A stretch of DNA of 64,000 bases from Candidatus Accumulibacter necessarius (GTDB lineage: Bacteria; Pseudomonadota; Gammaproteobacteria; Burkholderiales; Rhodocyclaceae). Each line of letters opens with the position of its first letter. Position 1 is the first letter of the stretch. Location of the stretch: assembly GCA_017302435.1 (NCBI GenBank), contig JAFLDL010000004.1:62001-126000 (forward strand), given 5' to 3'. The translations under genes were made by a program, and so were the position numbers. Shown one piece after another: positions 28,682 to 58,664 of the stretch. Under the pieces are notes generated by a model. It searched no databases and was not told the DNA's origin. It saw only the letters and a list, made by a program, of their open reading frames with translations.

Positions 28682-30358
28682 TCAGGCCTTCTTGATTGCC
28701 TCGTCGCGGAGTTCGCGGCGCAGGATCTTGCCGACGTTGGTCTTCGGCAACTCGGTACGGAATTCGACCTGGCCAGGCACCTTGTAGCCGGTCAGGTGCT
28801 CCCGGCAATGGGCGATCAACGCCTCTGCAGTGAGCGCCGGGTCCTTCTTGACGACGAAGATCTTCACCGCCTCTCCCGACTTGTCGTGCGGAACACCGAC
28901 CGCAGCAACCTCAAGAACGCCGGGATGCTGGGCCACGACATCCTCGACTTCGTTCGGGTACACGTTGAAGCCCGAGACCAGAATCATGTCCTTCTTCCGG
29001 TCGACAATACGGACGAAACCGGTTTCATCCATCACCGCGATATCGCCGGTCAGCAGGAAACCGTCAGGCATGATGACCTTGGCGGTCTCTTCAGGACGGT
29101 TGTAATAACCCTTCATGACCTGCGGACCCCGGATGCAGAGTTCGCCGCGCTCGCCCAGCGGTACATCGACGCCCGCGTCGTTGCGAATGGCGACCTCGGT
29201 AGACGAGATCGGCACACCAATCGCGCCGGTGTAGGCGGGGATGTCTAGTGGATTGATGGTTGCCGCCGGCGAGGTTTCGGTCAGACCATAGGCCTCGATG
29301 AGGGGCTTGCCGGTCACCTGCTTCCACCTTTCTGCAACCGCCCTCTGGACGGCCATCCCACCGCCGAGCGTGACCTTGAGCTTGGCGAAGTCGAGCGCAC
29401 AAAAGGCATCATTGTTCAGCATGGCATTGAACAGGGTATTGACGCCGGTGATGACCGTGAAGGGATACTTGCCCAGTTCCGCGACAAAACCAGGAATGTC
29501 GCGCGGGTTGGTAATCAGCAGGTTGCTGGCACCGATCTTGAAAAAGGTGAAGCAGTTCGCCGTCAGGGCGAAAATGTGGTAGAGGGGCAGCGCCGTAACG
29601 ACCATGTGCTGCTCATCCCCCAGCGCCGGCTTGATCCAGGCGTGCGCTTGGGCGAGATTGGCCAGGATGTTGCGATGAATCAGCATGGCCCCTTTCGAGA
29701 GGCCTGTCGTTCCACCCGTGTACTGCAGAAAGGCCAGATCTTCCTGCTTGACGGCGACCGCCTTCAGCTCGGCCGAAGCGCCCTTGGCAAGCGCGCTACG
29801 GAAATTGACGGCGCGCGGCAGATTCCATGCCGGCACCATCTTCTTGACATACTTGACGACGAAATTGACGACCGCACCCTTCGGAAAGCCGAGCATGTCG
29901 CCAAGACGAGCCACCACGATGTGTTTCACCGGCGTTCTCGCCACGACCTGCTCCAGGGTGACAGCGAAATTCTCGAGAATCACGATGACGTCGGCGCCTG
30001 AATCCTTCAGTTGATGCTCCAGTTCGCGTGGCGTGTACAGCGGGTTGACATTCACCACCACATAGCCCGCACGCAAGGCACCGAAAATACAGATCGGATA
30101 CTGCAGCACATTCGGCATCATCAGGGCCACGCGGGCCCCCAGCGGCAACTTGAGAACCGACTGCAGGTAAGCGGCAAAATCCCGCGACAACTTGTCGAGT
30201 TCCGCGTAGGTGATCTCGACCCCCATGTTGATATAGGCCACGCGGTCGCGATACTTTGCGACGCTTTTCTCGAACAGCTCGCCAAGCGACTGGAACTCGC
30301 TCAAATCAACCTCGGCGGGTACGCCCTGTTGATAGCTCTTCAGCCAGATCTTCTCCAC
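28682..30358 (-). CDS. fadD: Long-chain fatty acid-CoA ligase
   Basis: A 558-residue AMP-forming acyl-CoA synthetase. The P-loop is [17 protein letters not shown]; the AYGLTETSP motif, the [21 protein letters not shown] hinge region and the C-terminal lysine in [14 protein letters not shown] are present. The enzyme activates fatty acids for beta-oxidation or lipid synthesis. GTG 30358 (MEKIWLKSY) with AGGAGGAG upstream is chosen over the longer frame. It may feed acyl-CoA to the reductase and wax ester synthase 8-16 kb away. Confidence 0.95.
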
Positions 30359-30439
30359 CTGCTCTCCTCCTGAGTGACCTTCTCTGTATAAGAATCGGCG
30401 TCGCCGGCACCTGCCGTCGGCTGACTGCCGTTCGCCTCC

Positions 30440-30460
30440 CAACCATTGACCGAATGGTTG
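30440..30460. promoter_or_regulatory. Candidate operator palindrome upstream of fadD
   Basis: CAACCATT, GACCG, AATGGTTG: 8-bp perfect arms with a 5-bp spacer, about 80 bp upstream of the fadD start and just downstream (on the fadD strand) of a TAGAAT -10-like box. The form is typical of TetR-family operators for fatty-acid genes; the binding protein is not known. Confidence 0.45.
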
Positions 30461-38232: not shown

Positions 38233-38511
38233 ATGAGCGACATCATCATTCGCCGCCAGCACGGCAAGAGTCTCTCCGAGGCACGCGCGTCGGCTGAACA
38301 CATGGCGTCGGAGTTGAACGAAGAGTTCGACCTCAGCTACCATTGGGACGGCGATGTCATGCGCTTCAAGCGACCCGGTGTCGCCGGCGATCTGTCGGTC
38401 GACGATCAGCAGGTTGCTCTCAATATTCGTCTTGGCTTCCTGCTGTTCGCGCTCAAGCCCACCATAGAACGTGAGATCCACAGGTTTTTCGACGAAAACT
38501 TCCCCACCTGA
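38233..38511 (+). CDS. Polyhydroxyalkanoic acid system protein (PHA granule region family)
   Basis: A 92-residue protein matching the small family tied to PHA synthesis loci. Visible blocks are MSDIIIRRQHGKSLSEARASAE, NEEFDLSYHWDGDVMRFKRPGV and LNIRLGFLLFALKPTIEREI. Its exact role is unknown. It lies 17 nt after rsgA and opens the storage-lipid region. Confidence 0.88.
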   Translation: MSDIIIRRQHGKSLSEARASAEHMASELNEEFDLSYHWDGDVMRFKRPGVAGDLSVDDQQVALNIRLGFLLFALKPTIEREIHRFFDENFPT

Positions 38512-38544
38512 AGAAAGCTGCCCGCAAAGCCGGCCGAACCGGCT

Positions 38545-38805
38545 TCAGCTCGCTTTCAACTTTTCGATTAGGGCAATGTACTGCTGCATTGCCTCGGCAG
38601 CAGGTGTCCCCTTGATTGCTGCCCAGGCGTCGTATTTGGCGCGACCAACCATATCGGTAAAACCAGGGCGCCGGCCGTCGACGTCGCCGTCGCTGGCCTG
38701 CTTGTAAAGCGCATAGAGTTTTAGCAAAGTGGCGTTGTCCGGACGCTCGGGGAGTCTCTTGGAACTGGCAACAGCGGCCTCGAACTGGGCTTGCAGGTCA
38801 CTCAC
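38545..38805 (-). CDS. Acyl-CoA-binding protein
   Basis: An 86-residue ACBP. Conserved residues appear in LLKLYALYKQASDGDV, RPGFTDMVGRAKYDAWAAIKG and AMQQYIALIEKL, the four-helix acyl-CoA pocket. It buffers and delivers long-chain acyl-CoA. The start is GTG 38805 with AGAGGA upstream; the longer minus frame to 40152 is antisense to the acyltransferase and not coding. It is divergent from the WS/DGAT gene, which uses the same acyl-CoA substrates. Confidence 0.92.
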   Translation of the reverse strand: MSDLQAQFEAAVASSKRLPERPDNATLLKLYALYKQASDGDVDGRRPGFTDMVGRAKYDAWAAIKGTPAAEAMQQYIALIEKLKAS

Positions 38806-38883
38806 GGTGGTTCCTCTGGTTGATGATCGTGTGAACAGGCTTGCTATTATATGGGCTTGCCATTTCCACCGGGAGCACACGCG

Positions 38884-40407
38884 ATGACTTCGCGCCAGAG
38901 AATTTCTCATGTCGACACTGCCTGGTTGCGCATGGACCGACCTGAAAACCTGATGCAGATCCTTGGTGTGATGGTTTTCAAGGGCCGCGTCGACGCCGAA
39001 CGGTTCAAGCACACAGTCGCTCGACGCATGCTGCGTTACGAACGCTTTCGGCAGATTGCGACGGAGGATTCCGATGCCTGGTGGTGGGTCGACGACTCCG
39101 ACTTCGACATCGATGCGCACGTGCGCCACTGGTTTCTCCCGGCGCCCTGCGGCAAGCATGAACTGCAGAAGTTTGTCGCCGAAATGGCCAGCACGCCACT
39201 CAATCCGGCACGGCCGCGCTGGGAATTCAACCTCGTTGACATGGCCGACGGCAATTCCGCACTGGTCGTTCGCATCCACCATGCAATTGGCGATGGCATT
39301 GCCCTGCTTGGCGTCATCCACTCGCTGACCGATGACCAGGCCGAGGCGCCGGAGGAGGGCGGCCCGCCGGCTGCATCGCCAGGCAGCAGCCGAACGCTTG
39401 GCCGCCTGGAAGACGAAGGCGACCAAGACGACGCTTTCTGGCGCCTGGTCCTGGAGCCTCTGACGGACATCGCGTCCGCCTCGATACGCGTCGGTGGCCA
39501 CCTCTGGGGACAATACCTTGGCCTGCGCAATGACCCGGCACGCCTTCGCGACTACGCCCGGGTGGCGAGTGCGGTTGCCCAGGAAGTCAGCCAGCTTGCC
39601 TTGATGCCCAACGACACGCCGACGCGCTACAAGGGCAAGCCTGGCACGGTCAAGCGCGTGGCCTGGTCGGAACCGCTCCTGCTGAGCGACATCAAGGCGG
39701 TCGGCAAGGCTCTCGGCTGCTCGGTCAACGACACCCTGCTCGCTTCGGTCGCCGGTGCCCTGCGCAGCTATCTGGTAGCCAAAGGTGATCATCTGGGCAC
39801 CGGTGCAATTCGCGCCATGGTACCGGTCAATCTGCGTGCCCCCGGGGACGTCGACGATCTCGGCAATCGCTTTGGCCTGGTCGCACTCGAACTGCCGATC
39901 GGCATCGAGAACCCGCTGGCCAGGCTGTACGCGACGCGGGCCCGGATGGCTGCGTTGAAGGGTTCGTATCAGGCGATGCTGACCTTCAGCATCCTTGGCG
40001 CTGCCGGCATGGCGCCAAAATTTGTCGAGGACCAGATTCTCAACCTGCTGACCAGCAAGACCACGGCGGTCATGACCAATGTCCCGGGTTTCCAGCAGCC
40101 CCGTTACTTCGCCGGCAGCGAGATCGACCAGCAGATGGTCTGGGTACCGCAAGCCGGCGACATCGGCATGGGCGTCAGCATCCTGTCCTACAATGGCAGA
40201 GTGCAGTTCGGGCTGATTACCGACCGGAACATGGTCGACGACCCCGAGCAGATCGTCAACCGATTGGCAGTTGAGTTCGACAAACTGCTCTGGCTGCTCC
40301 TGCTGGAGCCTTGGGACCGGCTAAGCGATCCTGACGCGGTAGCCGACGATCTTGCCGGCCAGCCGCCTCCCCGCGCAGCGAAGCGCCGCATGACTGGCGC
40401 ACCCTGA
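38884..40407 (+). CDS. Wax ester synthase / diacylglycerol acyltransferase (WS/DGAT)
   Basis: A 507-residue bifunctional O-acyltransferase. The catalytic HHxxxDG motif is RIHHAIGDGIAL; the N-terminus SHVDTAWLRMDRPENLM and the block MVPVNLRAPGDVDDLGNRFG are typical, as is the late MTNVPGFQQPRYFAG. The enzyme joins acyl-CoA to fatty alcohols (wax esters) or diacylglycerol (triacylglycerol). ATG 38884 is the start. It is divergent from ACBP, and a fatty acyl-CoA reductase that would make the alcohol lies 4 kb downstream. Confidence 0.95.
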   Translation: MTSRQRISHVDTAWLRMDRPENLMQILGVMVFKGRVDAERFKHTVARRMLRYERFRQIATEDSDAWWWVDDSDFDIDAHVRHWFLPAPCGKHELQKFVAEMASTPLNPARPRWEFNLVDMADGNSALVVRIHHAIGDGIALLGVIHSLTDDQAEAPEEGGPPAASPGSSRTLGRLEDEGDQDDAFWRLVLEPLTDIASASIRVGGHLWGQYLGLRNDPARLRDYARVASAVAQEVSQLALMPNDTPTRYKGKPGTVKRVAWSEPLLLSDIKAVGKALGCSVNDTLLASVAGALRSYLVAKGDHLGTGAIRAMVPVNLRAPGDVDDLGNRFGLVALELPIGIENPLARLYATRARMAALKGSYQAMLTFSILGAAGMAPKFVEDQILNLLTSKTTAVMTNVPGFQQPRYFAGSEIDQQMVWVPQAGDIGMGVSILSYNGRVQFGLITDRNMVDDPEQIVNRLAVEFDKLLWLLLLEPWDRLSDPDAVADDLAGQPPPRAAKRRMTGAP

Positions 40408-40504
40408 GAGATTGCCACGGGCTGCGGCAATTCCCGTGAACACCTCAGCCGGGCCGTATCGCGCATCAATCCCAATGGCCCCTCGGCAGATGGAAAACCG
40501 CGAG

Positions 40505-41278
40505 TCAGTCGGCAAGTTCGGCCTTCGCCGCTTCGACGTCCAGACGTTCCATCGCATCCATCGGCTGGCAGCCTGCAGCTTCCTGATACAGCCGTTCGGC
40601 GTCCTTCAGCTTCGCCTTGCCGAACATCAGGACCAAGGCGTTGGCATACTCGATGCGGGCGATCGCAGAGTCGGGGATCAGTTCGAGCGCGGCTTCAAGC
40701 AGTTCCTTCCCGGTGTCCTTCTTTGCCCCGTAGGTAATTCCGCCAACCAGCGAGCCGACCTTGTCGATCACCTCTGCGTGATAGGCGCCAAGCGCGATGC
40801 GCGCGTCAGCGTGGCGAGGCTCAAGCGCCAGAGCCTGCGTCAGGCTGTGTTTGATCTTGCCGCCCATGCCCTCGGCGAGCGCCTTGACCACCGAAATGCT
40901 CTGGCTGTAGCGACCAAGCGCAAAGGCGTGGAGATACCAGGCATTCACATCGGCGGGCGTCTTTTCCTGCTGCTCCTCGCAGCGCTGCGCGACCTGCGTG
41001 AGCAAGCTGCGCTTGCGCTCGTCGTCAGTCTCGAGATAACCGGCGTAGATCGTCGCCGCCTTGTTGGCCACGTTGTAACCAGCCAAGCCGCAAGCCAGAC
41101 CAGTCGCGACCGCCTGGCCAAAGTCACCAGCGTGATAGCTTCGCCAGGCGTCCTGCACTTTTGGATCGTCGGGGAAGGGCTCGCAGTCGCCGCGATGCAG
41201 GCGTGCCCAGTTCTCTTGCAACGCCCCGCCGGCATAGTTGTATGCCTTGTCAGGATAGGGAAACTTTTTCCAGATCAT
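40505..41278 (-). CDS. TPR-like protein of unknown function
   Basis: A 257-residue helical protein beginning MIWKKFPYPDKAYNYAG. The C-terminal half shows tetratricopeptide-type repeats (TQALALEPRHADARIALGAYHAE and ELIPDSAIARIEYANALVLMFG). No signal peptide or enzyme motif is seen. It follows the TetR gene by 47 nt on the same strand and converges on WS/DGAT. It could be a scaffold for the lipid locus, but that is a guess from position. Confidence 0.75.
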   Translation of the reverse strand: MIWKKFPYPDKAYNYAGGALQENWARLHRGDCEPFPDDPKVQDAWRSYHAGDFGQAVATGLACGLAGYNVANKAATIYAGYLETDDERKRSLLTQVAQRCEEQQEKTPADVNAWYLHAFALGRYSQSISVVKALAEGMGGKIKHSLTQALALEPRHADARIALGAYHAEVIDKVGSLVGGITYGAKKDTGKELLEAALELIPDSAIARIEYANALVLMFGKAKLKDAERLYQEAAGCQPMDAMERLDVEAAKAELAD

Positions 41279-41325
41279 TGCTTGTCCTCGCTCCAGGTTC
41301 GTGAAGAATGGCCTTGCCCACCAGG

Positions 41326-41973
41326 CTACGCCGGGAGGTACTCCTGCGACAGCCTTTCGAGCAGGCCTCTCGATTCGCCCAACAGAAACGGCGAAACCAT
41401 CGCCATCACCTGATACACGCCGCGGCCAATGCGACCACTCTCGACCTTGCCGCGTGGGTCGCACGCATACTCGAAGGACAGCCAGTAGCTCGCGAGCACG
41501 GTCATGTTCGTCGCCAAGGCACGCAGCTCCTGAGTGCTGGCGCGCATCGCACCTGCCAGGACCAGCCCGTCGCACAAGGTGGTCGCCGTCCGCACCTTGT
41601 GCGCCAGTATCTGCCTGAAATGAATCTCCAGAACACGATTGCGGGTCAACAGATCATTCAGGTCGCGATAAAAGAAACGATACTTCCAGATCTGTTCGAA
41701 CAGGAGATGCAGGAACAGCCAGATATCCTCGACGTTGGCTGGCCGTCTGGTCGGCGCGGCAAGGGTTTCCTCGATCTCCCGTTCGAAGACGGCAAAGATT
41801 GATTCGAGGATTTCGTCCTTGTTATGGAAATGATAATAAAGGTTACCGGGACTGATGTTCATCTCGTCCGCAATGACCGTGGTCGTCACATTCGGCTCAC
41901 CGAAGTCATTGAACAGGCGCAGGCTCGTTTCGAGAATGCGTTCGCGCGTACGCCGCTTCGGCTTCTTGTCCAT
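41326..41973 (-). CDS. TetR/AcrR family transcriptional regulator
   Basis: A 215-residue regulator. The N-terminal HTH contains TRERILETSLRLFNDFGE and NISPGNLYYHFHNKDEILE. The C-terminal ligand domain resembles regulators of fatty-acid metabolism (EDIWLFLHLLFEQIWKYRFFYRDLNDLL). ATG 41973 (MDKKPKRRTRE) is chosen. Its place between the lipase and TPR genes makes it the likely controller of the storage-lipid locus, perhaps sensing an acyl-CoA. Confidence 0.92.
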   Translation of the reverse strand: MDKKPKRRTRERILETSLRLFNDFGEPNVTTTVIADEMNISPGNLYYHFHNKDEILESIFAVFEREIEETLAAPTRRPANVEDIWLFLHLLFEQIWKYRFFYRDLNDLLTRNRVLEIHFRQILAHKVRTATTLCDGLVLAGAMRASTQELRALATNMTVLASYWLSFEYACDPRGKVESGRIGRGVYQVMAMVSPFLLGESRGLLERLSQEYLPA

Positions 41974-42083
41974 CCACTGCCCGTCCTGATCTGTCAGCAA
42001 CGGCCAGCATAGCACTCCGTGCCAGCCCAGGGAATCCTCGCAGCCGTGATCTGCAAAGCCCAAGCCCGGCGAGCACGGCAGGA

Positions 42084-43301
42084 TCAGGCTTTCTGTGCTT
42101 CCAGCCAGACTTCGAGATCGCGCAACGAAGCGTCAAGCGCGCTGGCGCTGGTCGCCAGATCCGGACGGCGCTTGTGTGACAGCAACGAACGACTGTGGTC
42201 CTTGAGTACACCGAGATTCAATTCAATACCGTGACGAGCGAAGATCGGCCTCAACTCATGGCGCCGCCGGTAGAGATCGCTGCGGGTGCGTTGATAGGCA
42301 TGCTCGCATAAACGACTGCGGCCCCGATAGCTGAACACATTGGTAAAGAACATGTCCGCATCATCACGCGTCGGCTCGAACAGGACCACGTCCCTCCCCT
42401 GAAACTCGTGCCGATAGCGATCCATGCCGGTGCGCATCCGCGAGTGGATGATGGCCCGGAAAGTTTGCGCCAGGACGACCGGCAAACCGCCATCAACCAG
42501 ATGCTCGGGAGCCGGTGTCCGGTTCCCGTGCAGCGGCCGTTTGGCTGCCAGGCGTGAATCAAAGGGCACCAGCGGGTTGATGCAGATCAGCAACTCGGCG
42601 CCCTGCTGCAGCGCAACCGAAGCATGCAGTGTCTTGATCAGAGCGCCATCGACGAAATACCGCTCGCCGATCCGGACCGGTGGAAACAGGCCCGGCAAGG
42701 CAGCACTGGCCTGCACGGCGACAGAGATGGGCACCTCATCATGCCCCTCGGAGCCGAAGGCGACCGACTCTCCGGTGTCGAGATCGGTTGCTACGATGAA
42801 CAGCCGATGCTTGAGCTGGCGAAAATCGTTGCTCCGCCCGCCGGTCGAAAAGAGTCTTCGCAGCAGTTGGTCAATTCCTGAACTGTTGAAAAGCCCGGCG
42901 GGAATCGCATGACTGAGACCCTGGAACGCCTCGACCAGACGAAGATGCCAGGGATCCGAAAGGTACTGGCGCAAGGACGACCAGAACAACACTGGCACGG
43001 CAAGCGCACGCCGCAGGTATTCGCCGAAAGCCGGACGCAGAAGCATCTCGGGGTCAAATACCTCGTCGGTATCGTTTTCCACCAGCATGCGGGCCAACTT
43101 GGCAGGCCCCAGGCCGTTGGCGACGGCAGCCGATATGAAGGCACCCGAACTGACCCCGACGTAGATGTCAAAGCCGGTAAAGTCCAAACCATCGAGAGCC
43201 TCGGCCAATGCGGCCATCGCACCGACCTCGTAAATACCACCCACCGGACCACCCCCGGCGAGCGCCAGCCCGATCCTCGCACGCTTCCTTGCAGCAACCA
43301 T
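42084..43301 (-). CDS. Patatin-like phospholipase family protein
   Basis: A 405-residue patatin-fold hydrolase. The oxyanion motif is LALAGGGPVGGIYEVGAMAAL, the nucleophile serine is in GVSSGAFISA, and the Asp of the dyad is in YFVDGAL. Such enzymes hydrolyse phospholipids, neutral lipids or, in some granule proteins, PHA. ATG 43301 is the start. It is followed by the TetR gene and preceded by a phasin, so lipid or granule mobilisation is plausible. Confidence 0.92.
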   Translation of the reverse strand: MVAARKRARIGLALAGGGPVGGIYEVGAMAALAEALDGLDFTGFDIYVGVSSGAFISAAVANGLGPAKLARMLVENDTDEVFDPEMLLRPAFGEYLRRALAVPVLFWSSLRQYLSDPWHLRLVEAFQGLSHAIPAGLFNSSGIDQLLRRLFSTGGRSNDFRQLKHRLFIVATDLDTGESVAFGSEGHDEVPISVAVQASAALPGLFPPVRIGERYFVDGALIKTLHASVALQQGAELLICINPLVPFDSRLAAKRPLHGNRTPAPEHLVDGGLPVVLAQTFRAIIHSRMRTGMDRYRHEFQGRDVVLFEPTRDDADMFFTNVFSYRGRSRLCEHAYQRTRSDLYRRRHELRPIFARHGIELNLGVLKDHSRSLLSHKRRPDLATSASALDASLRDLEVWLEAQKA

Positions 43302-43445
43302 GGACCGCCATCCTTTCTCCTGGGGATACACCGCCTGCGGCAACATCCGACGCCGCTTTCCTGTGACTCGCTGTCAGCAGATCAAGCTCAAGACGACAGC
43401 GGACAAGCGCCGCCTGTCAACCGCAATCGCCTGCCTCAGCCAGCT

Positions 43446-43471
43446 GAGGCCCTCCCCTGGGGGAGGGCCTC
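43446..43471. repeat. 26-bp perfect inverted repeat between phasin and patatin genes
   Basis: GAGGCCCTCCCC, a TG spacer and GGGGAGGGCCTC: 12-bp perfect arms with a 2-nt centre. No U-tract follows on either strand. It could be a cruciform/protein site or an mRNA hairpin that reduces read-through from the phasin gene. Confidence 0.7.
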
Positions 43472-43543
43472 GCACACTCTGCAACCCTGGTTGAGGGCCT
43501 GGTCCAGGCACCGATGCCGGGTTGCACCAAACCGCTGAGGAAC

Positions 43544-44113
43544 CTACTCGCTTGGCTGTGGAATGGTATTCAGCACATCAGCCGGAGTCACCGGCGGGAC
43601 CGGCTTGGCGGCAGCGGCTTTGGCCGCAGGCCGGCGAGTAGCCGGTCTGGCGGCAGCCGGTTTGGCGGCCGCTGGCTCAGCCGCGGTGGCCGCTTCTTTC
43701 ACGACCGGCTTGGCGACGATCTTGGGAGCAGTTTTCCCCTCGGTCAGGGCCTGCACGGCGGCACTCAACTCGACGACGCGCTTGGACAGGCGATCAATAT
43801 CCTGCTTGCTCGGTACACCCAGACTTCCAAGGGCGCGCGCAACACGATCCTCGAACACCTGCTCCAGGCGATCCCAGGTCCCCGCGGCTTTACCTGCCAC
43901 CTGAGCAATCCGCTCGTCGGTCATCTTGCGGGTTTTCGACTGGATGCTCTCGCCTTCCTTGACCAAGGCATCGAACACCTTGCCGCCTTCCTCCTGGGCC
44001 TTTGCAAAAGCGCCGAGCCCGGCAAGCCAGATCTGCTGGGCAGATTCCTTGACTGTCGACGCCAACTGGTTCTCGCTCACGCCACCAGCCAATTCTCTGA
44101 GTTTCTTGCCCAT
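43544..44113 (-). CDS. Phasin family (PHA granule-associated) protein
   Basis: A 189-residue protein. The N-terminal phasin domain (QIWLAGLGAFAKAQEEGGKVFDALVKEG) is followed by a coiled-coil (DRLSKRVVELSAAVQAL) and a C-terminal Ala/Pro/Lys/Arg-rich tail like that of PhaF/histone-H1-like phasins, which can bind DNA. The ATG at 44113 has AAGGAG at good distance. It coats storage granules and is divergent from the acyl-CoA reductase gene. Confidence 0.9.
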   Translation of the reverse strand: MGKKLRELAGGVSENQLASTVKESAQQIWLAGLGAFAKAQEEGGKVFDALVKEGESIQSKTRKMTDERIAQVAGKAAGTWDRLEQVFEDRVARALGSLGVPSKQDIDRLSKRVVELSAAVQALTEGKTAPKIVAKPVVKEAATAAEPAAAKPAAARPATRRPAAKAAAAKPVPPVTPADVLNTIPQPSE

Positions 44114-44161
44114 TTCCATCTCCTTCAACGTAGTCACAAAAAAGGTCAACAAGTTTTTTGC

Positions 44162-44190
44162 TTGCCCTAAGAAGCCAGTGTAGTGACAAT
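44162..44190 (+). promoter_or_regulatory. Candidate promoter of the fatty acyl-CoA reductase gene
   Basis: TTGCCC, an exact 17-nt spacer and GACAAT; about 84 nt upstream of the ATG. Two TCTAGA palindromes (44192-44197 and 44228-44233) lie just downstream in the leader and might be regulatory. Confidence 0.5.
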
Positions 44191-44273
44191 ATCTAGAGGA
44201 CGCACACTAAAGACCCGGGCAACGGTCTCTAGACGACGGCAGTCCTGCAAACAAGGACCACGGGAGAGAACAA

Positions 44274-46259
44274 ATGAATTACTTCGTTACCGGCGCTACG
44301 GGTTTCATCGGCAAGCGGCTTGTCGCCAAACTGTTGGCAAGGCCCGAAGCGACCGTCTATTTCTTGACACGCGCAGTTGAGCAGTCCCACCTGCAGGATC
44401 TGTACGAGTACTGGGGTTGTGAAGCCAGCCGCGCCATCCCGATCGTCGGCGACCTCACGCAGGCTGAACTGGGCGTTTCAAAAGCAGACATCCGCAAGCT
44501 GAAGGGCAAGATCGAGCACTTCTTTCACCTCGCCGCAATCTATGACCTCAAGGCGAGCGCCGAAGACCAGCAGCGTGCCAACGTCGACGGCACGCGCAAT
44601 ACCGTGCGGCTGGCCGAGGAAATCGGTGCCGGACATTTCCACCTGGTCAGTTCAATTGCTTCTGCCGGCCTCTTCGAAGGACTGTTTCGTGAAGACATGT
44701 TCGACGAAGCGGAAAACCTCGACAACCCCTACTTCCGAACCAAGCATGATTCCGAGGGCATCGTCCGCAAGGAGTGCAGGATTCCCTGGCGCATCTTCCG
44801 CCCGGCGATCGTTGTCGGCGACTCGCGCACCGGCGAAATGGACAAGATCGACGGCCCCTACTACTTCTTCAAGCTGATCCAGAAAATGCGCCGGATGTTC
44901 CCCTCCTGGATGCCGACGATCGGCATTGAAGGCGGGCGAATCAACGTTGTCCCGGTCGACTTCGTCGTCGCCGCCATGGACCATATTGCGCACCTCGAGA
45001 ACGAGGACGGTAACTGCTTCCACCTGACCGATCCGACACCGATGCGCGTCGGCGATCTGCTCAACACCTTCGCGCGTGCGGCGCACGCGCCCGAAATGGC
45101 GTTGCGCATCAACGCCGCCCTGCTCGGTTTCATTCCGCGCTCGATGCGCAAGGCGATGTTCGCCCTGACGCCGGTTCGCCGCATCCGCAGCGCCGTGATG
45201 AAGGATCTTGGCCTGCCCGACGACATCCTCGACTTCGTCAACTACCCGACCCGCTTCGACTGCCGGGAGACGCAGCGCGCCCTCAAAGGCAGCGGCATCG
45301 CGGTGCCCCCGCTCGACAGCTACGCCTGGCGCCTGTGGGATTACTGGGAACGTCACCTCGACCCCGATCTGTTCATCGATCGCACCCTGCGCGGCCAGGT
45401 CGAAGGCAAGGTCGTACTGGTCACCGGCGGCTCCTCCGGTATCGGCAAGGCCACTATTCGCAAGCTGGCCGAGGCCGGAGCAATTGCCGTCACCATCGCT
45501 CGCGATGCGCAGGCGCTGGAAGCAGTCCGCAAGGAATTCGAGTCAGCCGGCCTGCGCCTGATCACGCACGCCGTCGACGTGGCCGACACACAGCAGTGCG
45601 AAGCCTTCGTCAAGTTCATGAACGAAGAGCATGGCGGTGTGGACATCCTGGTCAACAACGCCGGTCGCTCGATTCGCCGCGGCATCGAAAACTCCTTCGA
45701 TCGCTTCCACGACTTCGAGCGGACGATGGAAGTCAACTATTTCGGTGCGCTGCGGCTGACGATGGGCTTCCTGCCGGCCATGATTGCCAAGCGCAAGGGG
45801 CACGTGATCAATATCTCGTCAATCGGCGTCCTGACCAATGCGCCGCGCTTCTCGGCCTACGTCGCCTCAAAGGCGGCGATGGACGCCTGGGCACGCTGCG
45901 CCGCGTCGGAGTTTGCCGACCGCGGCATCGAATTCACGACCATCAACATGCCGCTGGTGAAGACCCCGATGATCGCGCCGACCAAGCTTTACGATCAGGT
46001 GCCGACGCTGTCCCCGGAAGATGCGGCCGATCTGGTGGTCGAGGCGATCATCCACAAGCCGGTACGGATCGCCACGCGACTGGGCATTTTCGGCGCCCTG
46101 CTGCACTCGGTGACGCCAAAGGTTGCCCAGATAACGATGAATACCTCTTTCCGGATGTTCCCCGACTCCAGTGCCGCGGCGCACAAGCAGCAGGAGCCAG
46201 CCCAGCAAACGGCTGACCAGGTTGCCTTCTCGCAGATGATGCGCGGGATTCATTTCTGA
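44274..46259 (+). CDS. Two-domain NADPH-dependent fatty acyl-CoA reductase (alcohol-forming, Marinobacter type)
   Basis: A 661-residue fusion, the length of the Marinobacter acyl-CoA reductase I remember. The N-terminal extended SDR domain has MNYFVTGATGFIGKRLVAKLL and the YxxxK in NPYFRTKHDSEGIVRKE; a block GIEGGRINVVPVDFVVAAMDHI follows. The C-terminal classical SDR domain starts at about residue 375 with VVLVTGGSSGIGKATI, NNAGRSIRRGIENSFDRFHDFERTM, and ISSIGV with YVASKAA. Known homologues reduce acyl-CoA or fatty aldehyde to fatty alcohol, the partner substrate of WS/DGAT. Start ATG 44274 has GGGAGAG upstream. Confidence 0.92.
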   Translation: MNYFVTGATGFIGKRLVAKLLARPEATVYFLTRAVEQSHLQDLYEYWGCEASRAIPIVGDLTQAELGVSKADIRKLKGKIEHFFHLAAIYDLKASAEDQQRANVDGTRNTVRLAEEIGAGHFHLVSSIASAGLFEGLFREDMFDEAENLDNPYFRTKHDSEGIVRKECRIPWRIFRPAIVVGDSRTGEMDKIDGPYYFFKLIQKMRRMFPSWMPTIGIEGGRINVVPVDFVVAAMDHIAHLENEDGNCFHLTDPTPMRVGDLLNTFARAAHAPEMALRINAALLGFIPRSMRKAMFALTPVRRIRSAVMKDLGLPDDILDFVNYPTRFDCRETQRALKGSGIAVPPLDSYAWRLWDYWERHLDPDLFIDRTLRGQVEGKVVLVTGGSSGIGKATIRKLAEAGAIAVTIARDAQALEAVRKEFESAGLRLITHAVDVADTQQCEAFVKFMNEEHGGVDILVNNAGRSIRRGIENSFDRFHDFERTMEVNYFGALRLTMGFLPAMIAKRKGHVINISSIGVLTNAPRFSAYVASKAAMDAWARCAASEFADRGIEFTTINMPLVKTPMIAPTKLYDQVPTLSPEDAADLVVEAIIHKPVRIATRLGIFGALLHSVTPKVAQITMNTSFRMFPDSSAAAHKQQEPAQQTADQVAFSQMMRGIHF

Positions 46260-46376: not shown

Positions 46377-46796
46377 ATGACCACAGCCACCGCAAGCCCC
46401 GTGCCGGCCCACAACGCCCGCCAACTCCTGAAGGAGCTGCAGGAGGCCTTTCCGGTCTTCCGTGACTGCCTGCCACTGGCCATCGGCATTGACAAGCAAC
46501 TCTTGGGCCGGCTGCCCGGCGTCGATCGCAAGGCTCTGCGTATCGCACTGGGGATGCATACGCACTCGCTGCGTTACCTGAAAGCGATGACCTGCGCAAC
46601 TGTACGCCTCGATCTCGATGGCCAGGAGACCGACGAAATCCCCGCAGAGCACCGCAAGCATGCGTCAGAACTGATCCAGGAACGGATCCGGAAGCAGGCG
46701 GAACAACGCAAGGCACAGCGCGAAGCCGAGGTGCTGGCCCGCCAACGCGCCGAGAAGCTCGACCAGCTGGTCGAAAAGTTTGGCCGTAGCCGCTGA
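46377..46796 (+). CDS. ProQ/FinO-domain RNA chaperone
   Basis: A 139-residue protein. The FinO/ProQ core is seen in LLKELQEAFPVFRDCLPLAIGI and RKALRIALGMHTHSLRYLKAM, followed by a basic coiled-coil tail. Proteins of this family bind structured RNA and stabilise sRNAs. The tail replaces the ProQ C-terminal Tudor domain, giving a minimal form. It stands alone between the reductase and an unknown gene. Confidence 0.9.
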   Translation: MTTATASPVPAHNARQLLKELQEAFPVFRDCLPLAIGIDKQLLGRLPGVDRKALRIALGMHTHSLRYLKAMTCATVRLDLDGQETDEIPAEHRKHASELIQERIRKQAEQRKAQREAEVLARQRAEKLDQLVEKFGRSR

Positions 46797-57479: not shown

Positions 57480-58664
57480 CTACAGGGCCAGCAGCTTGCG
57501 CGTGTGACGGGCGATCATCAGCTCTTCGTTGGTCGGCACCACCCACGCTGACGTCCCGCTGCCGGCGCTGCTGATGCGCGGGCCGGCCAGTTCGTTGGCC
57601 GCCTCGTCGATCTTGATGCCGAGCCAGCGCGCCTTCTCGCAAACGAGTTGCCGGATACGCGCGCTGTTTTCGCCAATCCCGGCGGTGAATACCAGCGCAT
57701 CAAGGCCGCCGAGCACGGCGGCGAGCGCGCCGAGTTCACGGCTGATGCGGTACACGAAGTGGTCGATCGCCAGCCGGGCGCGCGGTTCCTCGCTCGCCAG
57801 CAGAACGCGCATGTCGTTGCCGATGCCGGACAGGCCGAGCAGGCCCGAGCGCTTGTAGAGCAGATCCTCGATCTGCTTCGCGCTCATCCCCTCCTGCTGC
57901 AGCAGGTAGAGGACGATGCCGGGATCCATGTTGCCCGGCCGCGTCCCCATCAGCAGGCCGTCGAGGGCGGTGAAGCCCATCGAGCTGCCGACGCTGCGGC
58001 CCGCGTGCATCGCGCACATGCTGGCGCCGCTGCCGAGGTGGGCAACCACCACCCGCCCGCCGGCTACGGCTGGCGCGATACCTGGCAAGGCGGCGGCGAT
58101 GTACTCGTACGAGAGTCCGTGGAAGCCGTAGCGGCGCACACCCTGCTCGAAATACTCGTACGGCAGACCGTAGAACTGCGCGACCCTTTCCTGCGTCTGG
58201 TGGAAGGCGGTGTCGAAACAGGCGACCTGCGGCAGTTCCGGCTGCACCTCCTGCACGGCACGGATAGCCGCCAGATTGTGCGGCTGATGCAGCGGCGCCA
58301 GCGGTATGAAGTCCTCGAGGCGGCGCATCGCCTCCGGCGTCACCAGCAGGGGGGCCGCATAGTCCGGGCCGCCATGCACGACGCGGTGACCGACACCTGC
58401 CAGCACGCTGCCCTGGAAACGCGAGCGCAACAGTCCGGCGATCCGCTGCAGCGCCTGCGCATGGCCGCTGACCTCGCTCTTGTCCCACTGCTCGTCGGCA
58501 ATCCGCTCGCCGGCGCCATCCTTGACCTTGAGACGCGGCGCGGTGCCGAGCCCCTCGACCTGGCCGACCGCGACGGCGCGCATCTCCCCCGCCGCAGGCA
58601 CTGCAAACAGCGAGAACTTGAGGCTCGACGAGCCGGCATTGAGGACCAGAATCAGATTTTCCAT
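57480..58664 (-). CDS. ackA: Acetate kinase
   Basis: A 394-residue acetate kinase. It has NLILVLNAGSSSLKFSLF at the start, GVGHRVVHGGPDYAAP, CFDTAFHQT, RRYGFHGLSYEYIA and HLGSGASMCAM, and FTAGIGENSARIR near the end. It interconverts acetate/ATP and acetyl phosphate/ADP. It starts 1 nt after the MaoC-Pta gene stop; with it the Ack-Pta route is complete. Confidence 0.97.
   Translation of the reverse strand: MENLILVLNAGSSSLKFSLFAVPAAGEMRAVAVGQVEGLGTAPRLKVKDGAGERIADEQWDKSEVSGHAQALQRIAGLLRSRFQGSVLAGVGHRVVHGGPDYAAPLLVTPEAMRRLEDFIPLAPLHQPHNLAAIRAVQEVQPELPQVACFDTAFHQTQERVAQFYGLPYEYFEQGVRRYGFHGLSYEYIAAALPGIAPAVAGGRVVVAHLGSGASMCAMHAGRSVGSSMGFTALDGLLMGTRPGNMDPGIVLYLLQQEGMSAKQIEDLLYKRSGLLGLSGIGNDMRVLLASEEPRARLAIDHFVYRISRELGALAAVLGGLDALVFTAGIGENSARIRQLVCEKARWLGIKIDEAANELAGPRISSAGSGTSAWVVPTNEELMIARHTRKLLAL

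Follow-up and report, generated by a model that had tools for sequence, protein, structure and literature searches.

The window analysed here, a stretch of 64,000 nucleotides from Candidatus Accumulibacter necessarius (contig JAFLDL010000004.1, positions 62,001 to 126,000), holds between its positions 38233 and 46259 a cluster of eight genes that we read as part of a predicted neutral-lipid storage system, together with an inverted repeat that recurs at a second, unlinked locus of the same genome. Start codons were assigned from the sequence and the coordinates refined accordingly. The cluster begins with a 92-residue PHA_gran_rgn family protein (PF09650/TIGR02610; PHA, polyhydroxyalkanoate) on the forward strand (38233-38511; 93.4 bits against a cut-off of 26.6 for PF09650, 84.8 against 40.25 for TIGR02610). 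It is followed on the reverse strand by an acyl-CoA-binding protein of 86 residues (ACBP; PF00887, 98 bits, cut-off 28.3; 38545-38805), a short gene with a GTG start inside a long mechanical open reading frame. Divergent from it, with 78 bp between the start codons, lies the first copy of a wax ester synthase/diacylglycerol acyltransferase (WS/DGAT) on the forward strand (38884-40407, its reading frame opening at 38851; PF03007 127 bits, PF06974 128 bits). Four reverse-strand genes come next: a TPR-fold protein of 257 residues (40505-41278); a TetR-type regulator (PF13972 and PF00440; 41326-41973); a patatin-like lipase that could hydrolyse neutral lipid (42084-43346, start possibly at 43301; PF01734 97.6 bits, cut-off 27.7); and a PF05597 phasin with a tail rich in lysine, alanine and proline, a candidate droplet coat (43544-44113; PF05597 134.7 bits, cut-off 28.8; TIGR01837 99.6 bits, cut-off 94.7). 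The last gene, divergent from the phasin on the forward strand, encodes a predicted two-domain alcohol-forming fatty acyl-CoA reductase (FAR) of 661 residues (44274-46259). The gap between the two contains a 29-bp block, TAGTGACAATATCTAGAGGACGCACACTA (44181-44209, no strand assigned), which is conserved in relatives and in which positions 44194-44209, at the 3' end, form the inverted repeat TAG-N10-CTA. A degenerate second copy, read from the sequence as CGG-N10-CTA in the window, stands 22 bp beyond the first (44216-44231, likewise without strand). All eight genes named in a preliminary description of this DNA are thus present in the order and orientation claimed there.

For the reductase the match to NF005539 (PRK07201) is full-length, residues 1-661 aligning to model positions 1-657 at 1018.3 bits (cut-off 549), and the two domains of the enzyme, PF07993 (NAD_binding_4) at residues 5-235 and PF00106 (adh_short) at 379-569, bear out the proposed two-domain architecture. 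The nucleotide-binding and YxxxK motifs of both halves (G7, G10, G13, Y153 and K157; G385, G389, G391, S515/S516, Y529 and K533) are conserved in 97% or more of 81 sequences. The same level of conservation holds for the HHxxxDG motif of WS/DGAT copy 1, which had been singled out earlier and reads HHAIGDG in the window (H132, H133, D137 and G138; 39 sequences), and for the GxSxG serine (S66) and DGA aspartate (D233) of the patatin (28 sequences); all these counts cover only sequences that satisfied a length filter. WS/DGAT copy 1 also exceeds the cut-off of TIGR02946 (378.5 against 309.95 bits). The host genome has one full-length FAR match and three WS/DGAT genes, of which copies 2 (HHASADG) and 3 (HHAALDG) likewise carry PF03007 and PF06974 above cut-off. 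Copy 3 (L095, G000:C56, 9796-11325) is of a type present in about 9 of 28 genomes of the genus, with no element in the stretches read. On these grounds the first enzyme would be an alcohol-forming fatty acyl-CoA reductase, and the second would make wax ester or triacylglycerol. Could the reductase instead act on other substrates, for instance in aldehyde detoxification, outside storage altogether? Its C-terminal half does belong to the large short-chain dehydrogenase/reductase (SDR) family with its many substrates, yet the full-length match is to an equivalog of the PRK07201 type, the two-part enzymes FCR1 and Maqu_2507 form fatty alcohol according to the parts consulted of PMC3522743 and PMC7744569, and the genomes with FAR are nested within those with WS/DGAT. 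We consider such a function highly improbable.

This nesting supports the view that the two enzymes belong together, as the preliminary description had proposed. Among 220 genomes, one draw from the order, FAR was found in 28 at a threshold of E <= 1e-100 and PF03007 in 30, and all 28 lie within the 30, so that there was no case of FAR without WS/DGAT. The overlap has a hypergeometric p of 2e-33 by genome and of 4e-16 by genus (14 FAR genera among 16 WS/DGAT genera of 114), both without correction for kinship, of which neither these 220 genomes nor the samples of 34 and 28 used below are independent. The share of genomes with WS/DGAT, 13.6%, is in line with the figure of roughly 10 to 15% in the part of PMC10351704 consulted. 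A second case is offered by relatives whose FAR locus has no WS/DGAT nearby, which is true of 44 of the 80 loci compared below: a genome-wide search, covering 34 of these 44, found WS/DGAT elsewhere in 34 of 34, where an absence would have spoken against the pairing.

The 80 loci are the best named ones among at least 579 confirmed FAR relatives and were picked by similarity of the reductase, so that all synteny counts are conditional on FAR. They span records named Rhodocyclales and Burkholderiales as well as two genera of Neisseriales, Craterilacuibacter and Crenobacter; the best named FAR relative among the matches listed is a Pseudomonadota bin (92%), followed by records named Accumulibacter (84-91%). 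A phasin stands divergent beside FAR in 75 of the 80, and the series TPR-TetR-patatin-phasin-FAR is kept in the same order and orientation in 45. The gene cluster is not a product of chance, and the arrangement, described earlier as unusual, proves to be a recurrent one in Betaproteobacteria. WS/DGAT lies near FAR in 36 of the 80; a 37th match (L038) is weak and 11 kb distant. In six genomes the full TetR gene lies away from FAR, adjoined by the TPR gene in all six and, within the stretch read, by WS/DGAT copy 1 as well in four (L164 and L167-L169). This, together with the presence of WS/DGAT elsewhere in the genome, indicates that the locus behaves as two modules retained in one genome. Synteny extends in many relatives to htpX, rsgA, a ProQ-domain gene, rpsO and pnp; in the window a short ProQ/FinO-domain protein (46377-46796) lies immediately 3' of FAR, and loci named Accumulibacter have the same neighbour.

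The 29-bp block in the gap between phasin and FAR is almost invariant across Accumulibacter. Its exact repeat TAG-N10-CTA occurs in 73 of the 75 FAR-phasin intergenic regions (five of the 80 loci, having no phasin match, were left out), where 2.3 are expected from shuffles that preserve single-base composition only; for the 29-bp form a dinucleotide shuffle was used. Its density in these gaps is 6.2 per kb; over the remainder of these loci, 1,436 kb in total, it is 0.021 per kb. Tandem copies are present in 25 of the 75 regions and are always 22 bp apart, and not a single such pair occurs outside. When the host genome was searched with the 16-letter core at up to two mismatches, only two places were returned, both of them exact: the window locus and a site some 230 bp 5' of WS/DGAT copy 2. 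Across the 28 genomes of the genus a 17-letter form with at most one mismatch gave 42 matches, 28 at phasin-FAR (one in each of the 28 genomes) and 14 at a second phasin, while the reversed pattern gave none; and a stricter form, run against 121 family genomes, gave 9 exact matches in 8 genomes, each adjoining a phasin, again with none for the control. As the element follows phasins more closely than it follows enzymes, we name it the phasin operator, which on this comparative evidence it probably is. The idea that it marks all WS/DGAT genes was rejected, there being none in the 30 loci L173-L202; among the 29 loci L203-L231 only L222 has an element by a phasin, and two further occurrences, L222:1831 and L225:105, are isolated.

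The second site lies on another contig (L094, G000:C9, 8163-10366), where a second phasin is divergent from WS/DGAT copy 2 with the element between them, mirroring the arrangement of phasin and FAR in the window. The WS/DGAT near the shared element is thus the second, unlinked copy and not the one in the window. Phasin 2 matches PF05597 at 66.1 bits (cut-off 28.8) and has no NCBIfam match at E <= 1e-20. It is present in 22 of the 25 WS/DGAT-2 loci inspected in the genus, and the element accompanies it in every one of the 22, in 20 as an exact copy and in two with a single differing base, while the three loci without phasin 2 have none; three further PF03007 matches, possibly of the same type by score (G129:C48, G143:C315 and G133:C102), fall outside the 25. 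In G079 (L239, G079:C21; L130) what appears by eye to be an aldehyde-dehydrogenase-like gene is inserted between the element and WS/DGAT copy 2. The search of the host genome for the PF05597 family returned these two phasins and no others, and each is divergent from a neutral-lipid gene. Both might sit on lipid droplets.

Which protein would recognize the operator? The TetR-type regulator of the locus is the best candidate. Its predicted model (mean pLDDT 91.3) has the TetR fold with an N-terminal helix-turn-helix, and its best match in the PDB is 3nnr, Maqu_3571 of Marinobacter aquaeolei VT8 (TM 0.87/0.91, 35% identity). The species of this nearest fold is also that of the wax ester model. 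Of ten genomes searched, seven have no TetR beside FAR and phasin and carry it elsewhere, as an orthologue of 48-52% identity in L043, L048, L055, L060, L062 and L076 and as two partial pieces in L042; six of the seven keep the exact repeat. In L080 and L009 a local TetR and the repeat are both present, and the metagenome bin L028 has neither the repeat nor a TetR match better than E 1e-6. By this co-occurrence, TetR is the likely binder of TAG-N10-CTA. A suspicion that the L043 gene is broken was dropped, its TGA probably lying upstream of the start codon and the frame aligning from residue 1. The TPR protein, whose all-helical model has a mean pLDDT of 96.4, is matched best by the TPR domain of PTPIP51 and in third place by 7t1s, a sterol transporter from bacteria, with TM-scores of 0.62-0.63 by query length for these matches. 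They hint at lipid handling and are no more than a lead; a scaffold protein is also possible.

Taken together, these observations make it fairly probable, in our judgement, that two loci, of which this is one, together make up a phasin-coated storage system for neutral lipid, be it wax ester or triacylglycerol. The gene content, the conserved active sites, the co-occurrence of FAR and WS/DGAT and the tracking of phasins by a shared element come directly from the comparison of genomes. In the proposed system FAR would supply fatty alcohol, which WS/DGAT (the window copy, the unlinked copy 2 or both) would join to acyl-CoA to give wax ester, unless it makes triacylglycerol. ACBP would carry the acyl-CoA, to which the fadD gene lying about 8 kb away (28682-30442, reverse strand), as had been claimed, could contribute; it exceeds the cut-off of NF006523 (901.5 against 884 bits). 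The PF05597 phasins would coat the droplets and the patatin would hydrolyse the store. The TAG-N10-CTA operator, often in tandem 22 bp apart, would control the phasin promoters and perhaps also the divergent enzymes, FAR at the window locus and WS/DGAT copy 2 at the other. The TetR of the locus would be its likely binder, with acyl-CoA as a conceivable cue.

A number of findings weigh against this proposal and are taken here by the part that they touch. Its enzyme activities, its product, the droplet with the phasins on it and the binding of its regulator are inferences. The WS/DGAT family is known for the synthesis of both, in agreement with the name of TIGR02946. Triacylglycerol would be the main product if the WS/DGATs acted as diacylglycerol acyltransferases and the FAR alcohols were minor or diverted. 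This alternative is favoured by the genome G260, which retains two phasins each with the element, the patatin-TetR-TPR cassette, WS/DGAT and ACBP and has no FAR at E <= 1e-100, and by G327, which also has WS/DGAT without FAR, although in an assembly of 680 contigs the reductase may be lost in gaps. On the other side, FAR never occurs without WS/DGAT in the 220 genomes, only these two of the 30 WS/DGAT genomes are without FAR, and the operator-bearing phasin has FAR as its divergent partner throughout the genus (28 of 28 genomes). We regard triacylglycerol as an unlikely main product. Wax ester is the best reading, and the second storage polymer suggested in the preliminary description would take this form or, as the G260 case allows, that of triacylglycerol. 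Eight loci (L220, L221, L224-L227, L229 and L230) from two other families of the order, f20 and f31, have FAR and WS/DGAT as immediate divergent neighbours; the stretch read there contains no phasin, and the gap between the two genes has no operator.

Other findings bear on the phasins. The element lies 79 +- 0.9 bp from the phasin start and 78 +- 11.5 bp from FAR in 14 Accumulibacter-like loci, and a spacing fixed to the phasin rather than to FAR renders its control of FAR and of WS/DGAT copy 2 less certain than that of the phasin; control of the divergent enzymes is possible. Two relatives, L236 (G014) and L237 (G025), retain the element together with the phasin and TetR, and the position of the adjacent FAR is taken by other genes; no search for FAR or WS/DGAT elsewhere in these genomes was made. 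By eye, the replacing genes encode a probable cytochrome with CxxCH motifs and an alpha/beta-hydrolase-like protein. The PF05597 profile was also matched in 2 of 14 control genomes, in one of them above cut-off. One might instead suppose a PHA-granule role for the phasin, the PHA_gran_rgn protein and TetR, with FAR and WS/DGAT as neighbours of separate function. The PHA names of PF05597 and TIGR02610, the persistence of operator and phasin in L236 and L237 and the fixed distance to the phasin would all fit such a module. Against it, each of the two PF05597 genes found in the genome stands divergent from a neutral-lipid gene, and TetR and TPR adjoin WS/DGAT copy 1 in four of the six loci where TetR is not next to FAR. 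We hold a pure PHA module to be distinctly unlikely. As for the mixed granules proposed earlier, the phasin is tied to PHA by its family name only, and with both phasins beside neutral-lipid genes such granules become one option among others.

Further findings concern the regulator. No exact repeat was found upstream of TetR (0/65), patatin (0/59), ACBP (0/28) or TPR (0/61), and the two matches upstream of WS/DGAT copy 1 (2/37) are slicing artefacts where a contig end cuts the gene. The element thus gives no sign that the locus as a whole is co-regulated, and TetR has no such site of its own. Of the earlier claim that the genes are controlled together, there remains the element common to phasin-FAR and to phasin 2 near WS/DGAT copy 2, and the part concerning TetR, patatin, TPR, ACBP and the window WS/DGAT finds no support in the search for it. 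In the searches of the host genome the reversed-pattern control exceeded the pattern itself (4 against 2 at two mismatches, 7 against 2 at three), for which reason loose single-genome searches count only for exact or near-exact matches. Finally, L062 has TetR and yet its repeat is one base off. The reversed-pattern controls and the missing element before the other locus genes take weight from the storage proposal and add it to the PHA module and to the possibility that the element is the site of another regulator or a promoter element. The latter would accord with a position set relative to the phasin start, with the lack of an exact repeat before TetR in 65 regions and with TetR not being adjacent in seven of the ten genomes searched. 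Against this, an inverted repeat, in tandem copies 22 bp apart in a third of the regions (25/75), suits a dimeric regulator, and those seven genomes do have TetR elsewhere, while the sole genome without TetR is also without the element. An element independent of TetR is a possibility that we doubt but take seriously.

Two further features of the window stand apart from these arguments. In the gap between phasin and patatin we noticed by eye a perfect inverted repeat of 12 bp around a loop of two bases (43446-43471), a possible hairpin with no T run on the phasin strand. An acetate kinase gene (PF00871) is located at 57480-58664.

Accumulibacter is a main organism of biological phosphorus removal, and its metabolic models count three stores, polyphosphate, PHA and glycogen. 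If the storage proposal is true, the cells would have one more store, a reduced one, and this would alter the balance of carbon and electrons; its key genes are present in all 28 genomes of the genus that were searched. We may go one step further and imagine wax-ester droplets with PF05597 phasins of their own, run from two unlinked phasin/enzyme promoters under a single acyl-CoA-sensing TetR. As each turnover of FAR consumes reducing power, making wax ester could then give the cells an electron sink during the anaerobic feast phase, by analogy with the wax ester fermentation of Euglena. This scenario is speculative and rather unlikely. The tie of phasins with PHA names to neutral-lipid enzymes through a shared element offers, in addition, a testable rule for coat proteins of bacterial lipid droplets.

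How does this system compare with those already known? In Pseudomonas, the phasins PhaF and PhaI are under the TetR-type PhaD and accompany genes for medium-chain-length PHA. The likeness is that of PF05597-type phasins under a TetR-type protein, and the difference lies in the partners, which are mcl-PHA genes there and FAR and WS/DGAT here. Rhodococcus RHA1 has no relatives of known phasins according to the part consulted of PMC2667194. The same type of reductase is known from another organism, Mycobacterium, whose FCR1 (Rv3391, 650 residues) is 40% identical to MAQU_2507 over 639 residues; as far as the consulted sections of PMC3522743 go, it makes fatty aldehyde and alcohol, is required for wax ester and has a reported function in stress and dormancy. 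Nearer to the present locus are the Burkholderiales ws/dgat scaffolds of 2023 (PMC10351704), which in the sections consulted have ACBP beside ws/dgat, a PHA-system family protein, a phasin on another scaffold and SDR reductases 58.8-59.2% identical to MAQU_2507. Parts of the arrangement, which the preliminary description had thought undescribed, were accordingly already in print. The main-text section of that report is without the shared element, the patatin/TetR/TPR cassette, the second phasin-WS/DGAT locus and Accumulibacter, though its S6 Fig may show more genes. In the open-licence PMC literature, as far as its texts were seen, wax ester and Accumulibacter meet only inside a reference on Gordonia (PMC9003127), which is no proof of absence from print, and the papers seen describe no phasin element common to two unlinked loci for neutral lipid. 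A functional parallel is the wax ester pathway of Marinobacter, with which the present genome shares the combination of a FAR of the Maqu_2507 type and WS/DGAT. Maqu_2507, which is listed as a fatty alcohol producer in the part consulted of PMC7744569, is presumably two-domain, to judge from its 639-residue match to FCR1 (PMC3522743, seen in part). Unlike in Marinobacter, FAR here has a phasin as its divergent neighbour, and a second phasin and WS/DGAT recur at another locus with the same element. What is new is this control element common to two unlinked phasin/neutral-lipid loci.

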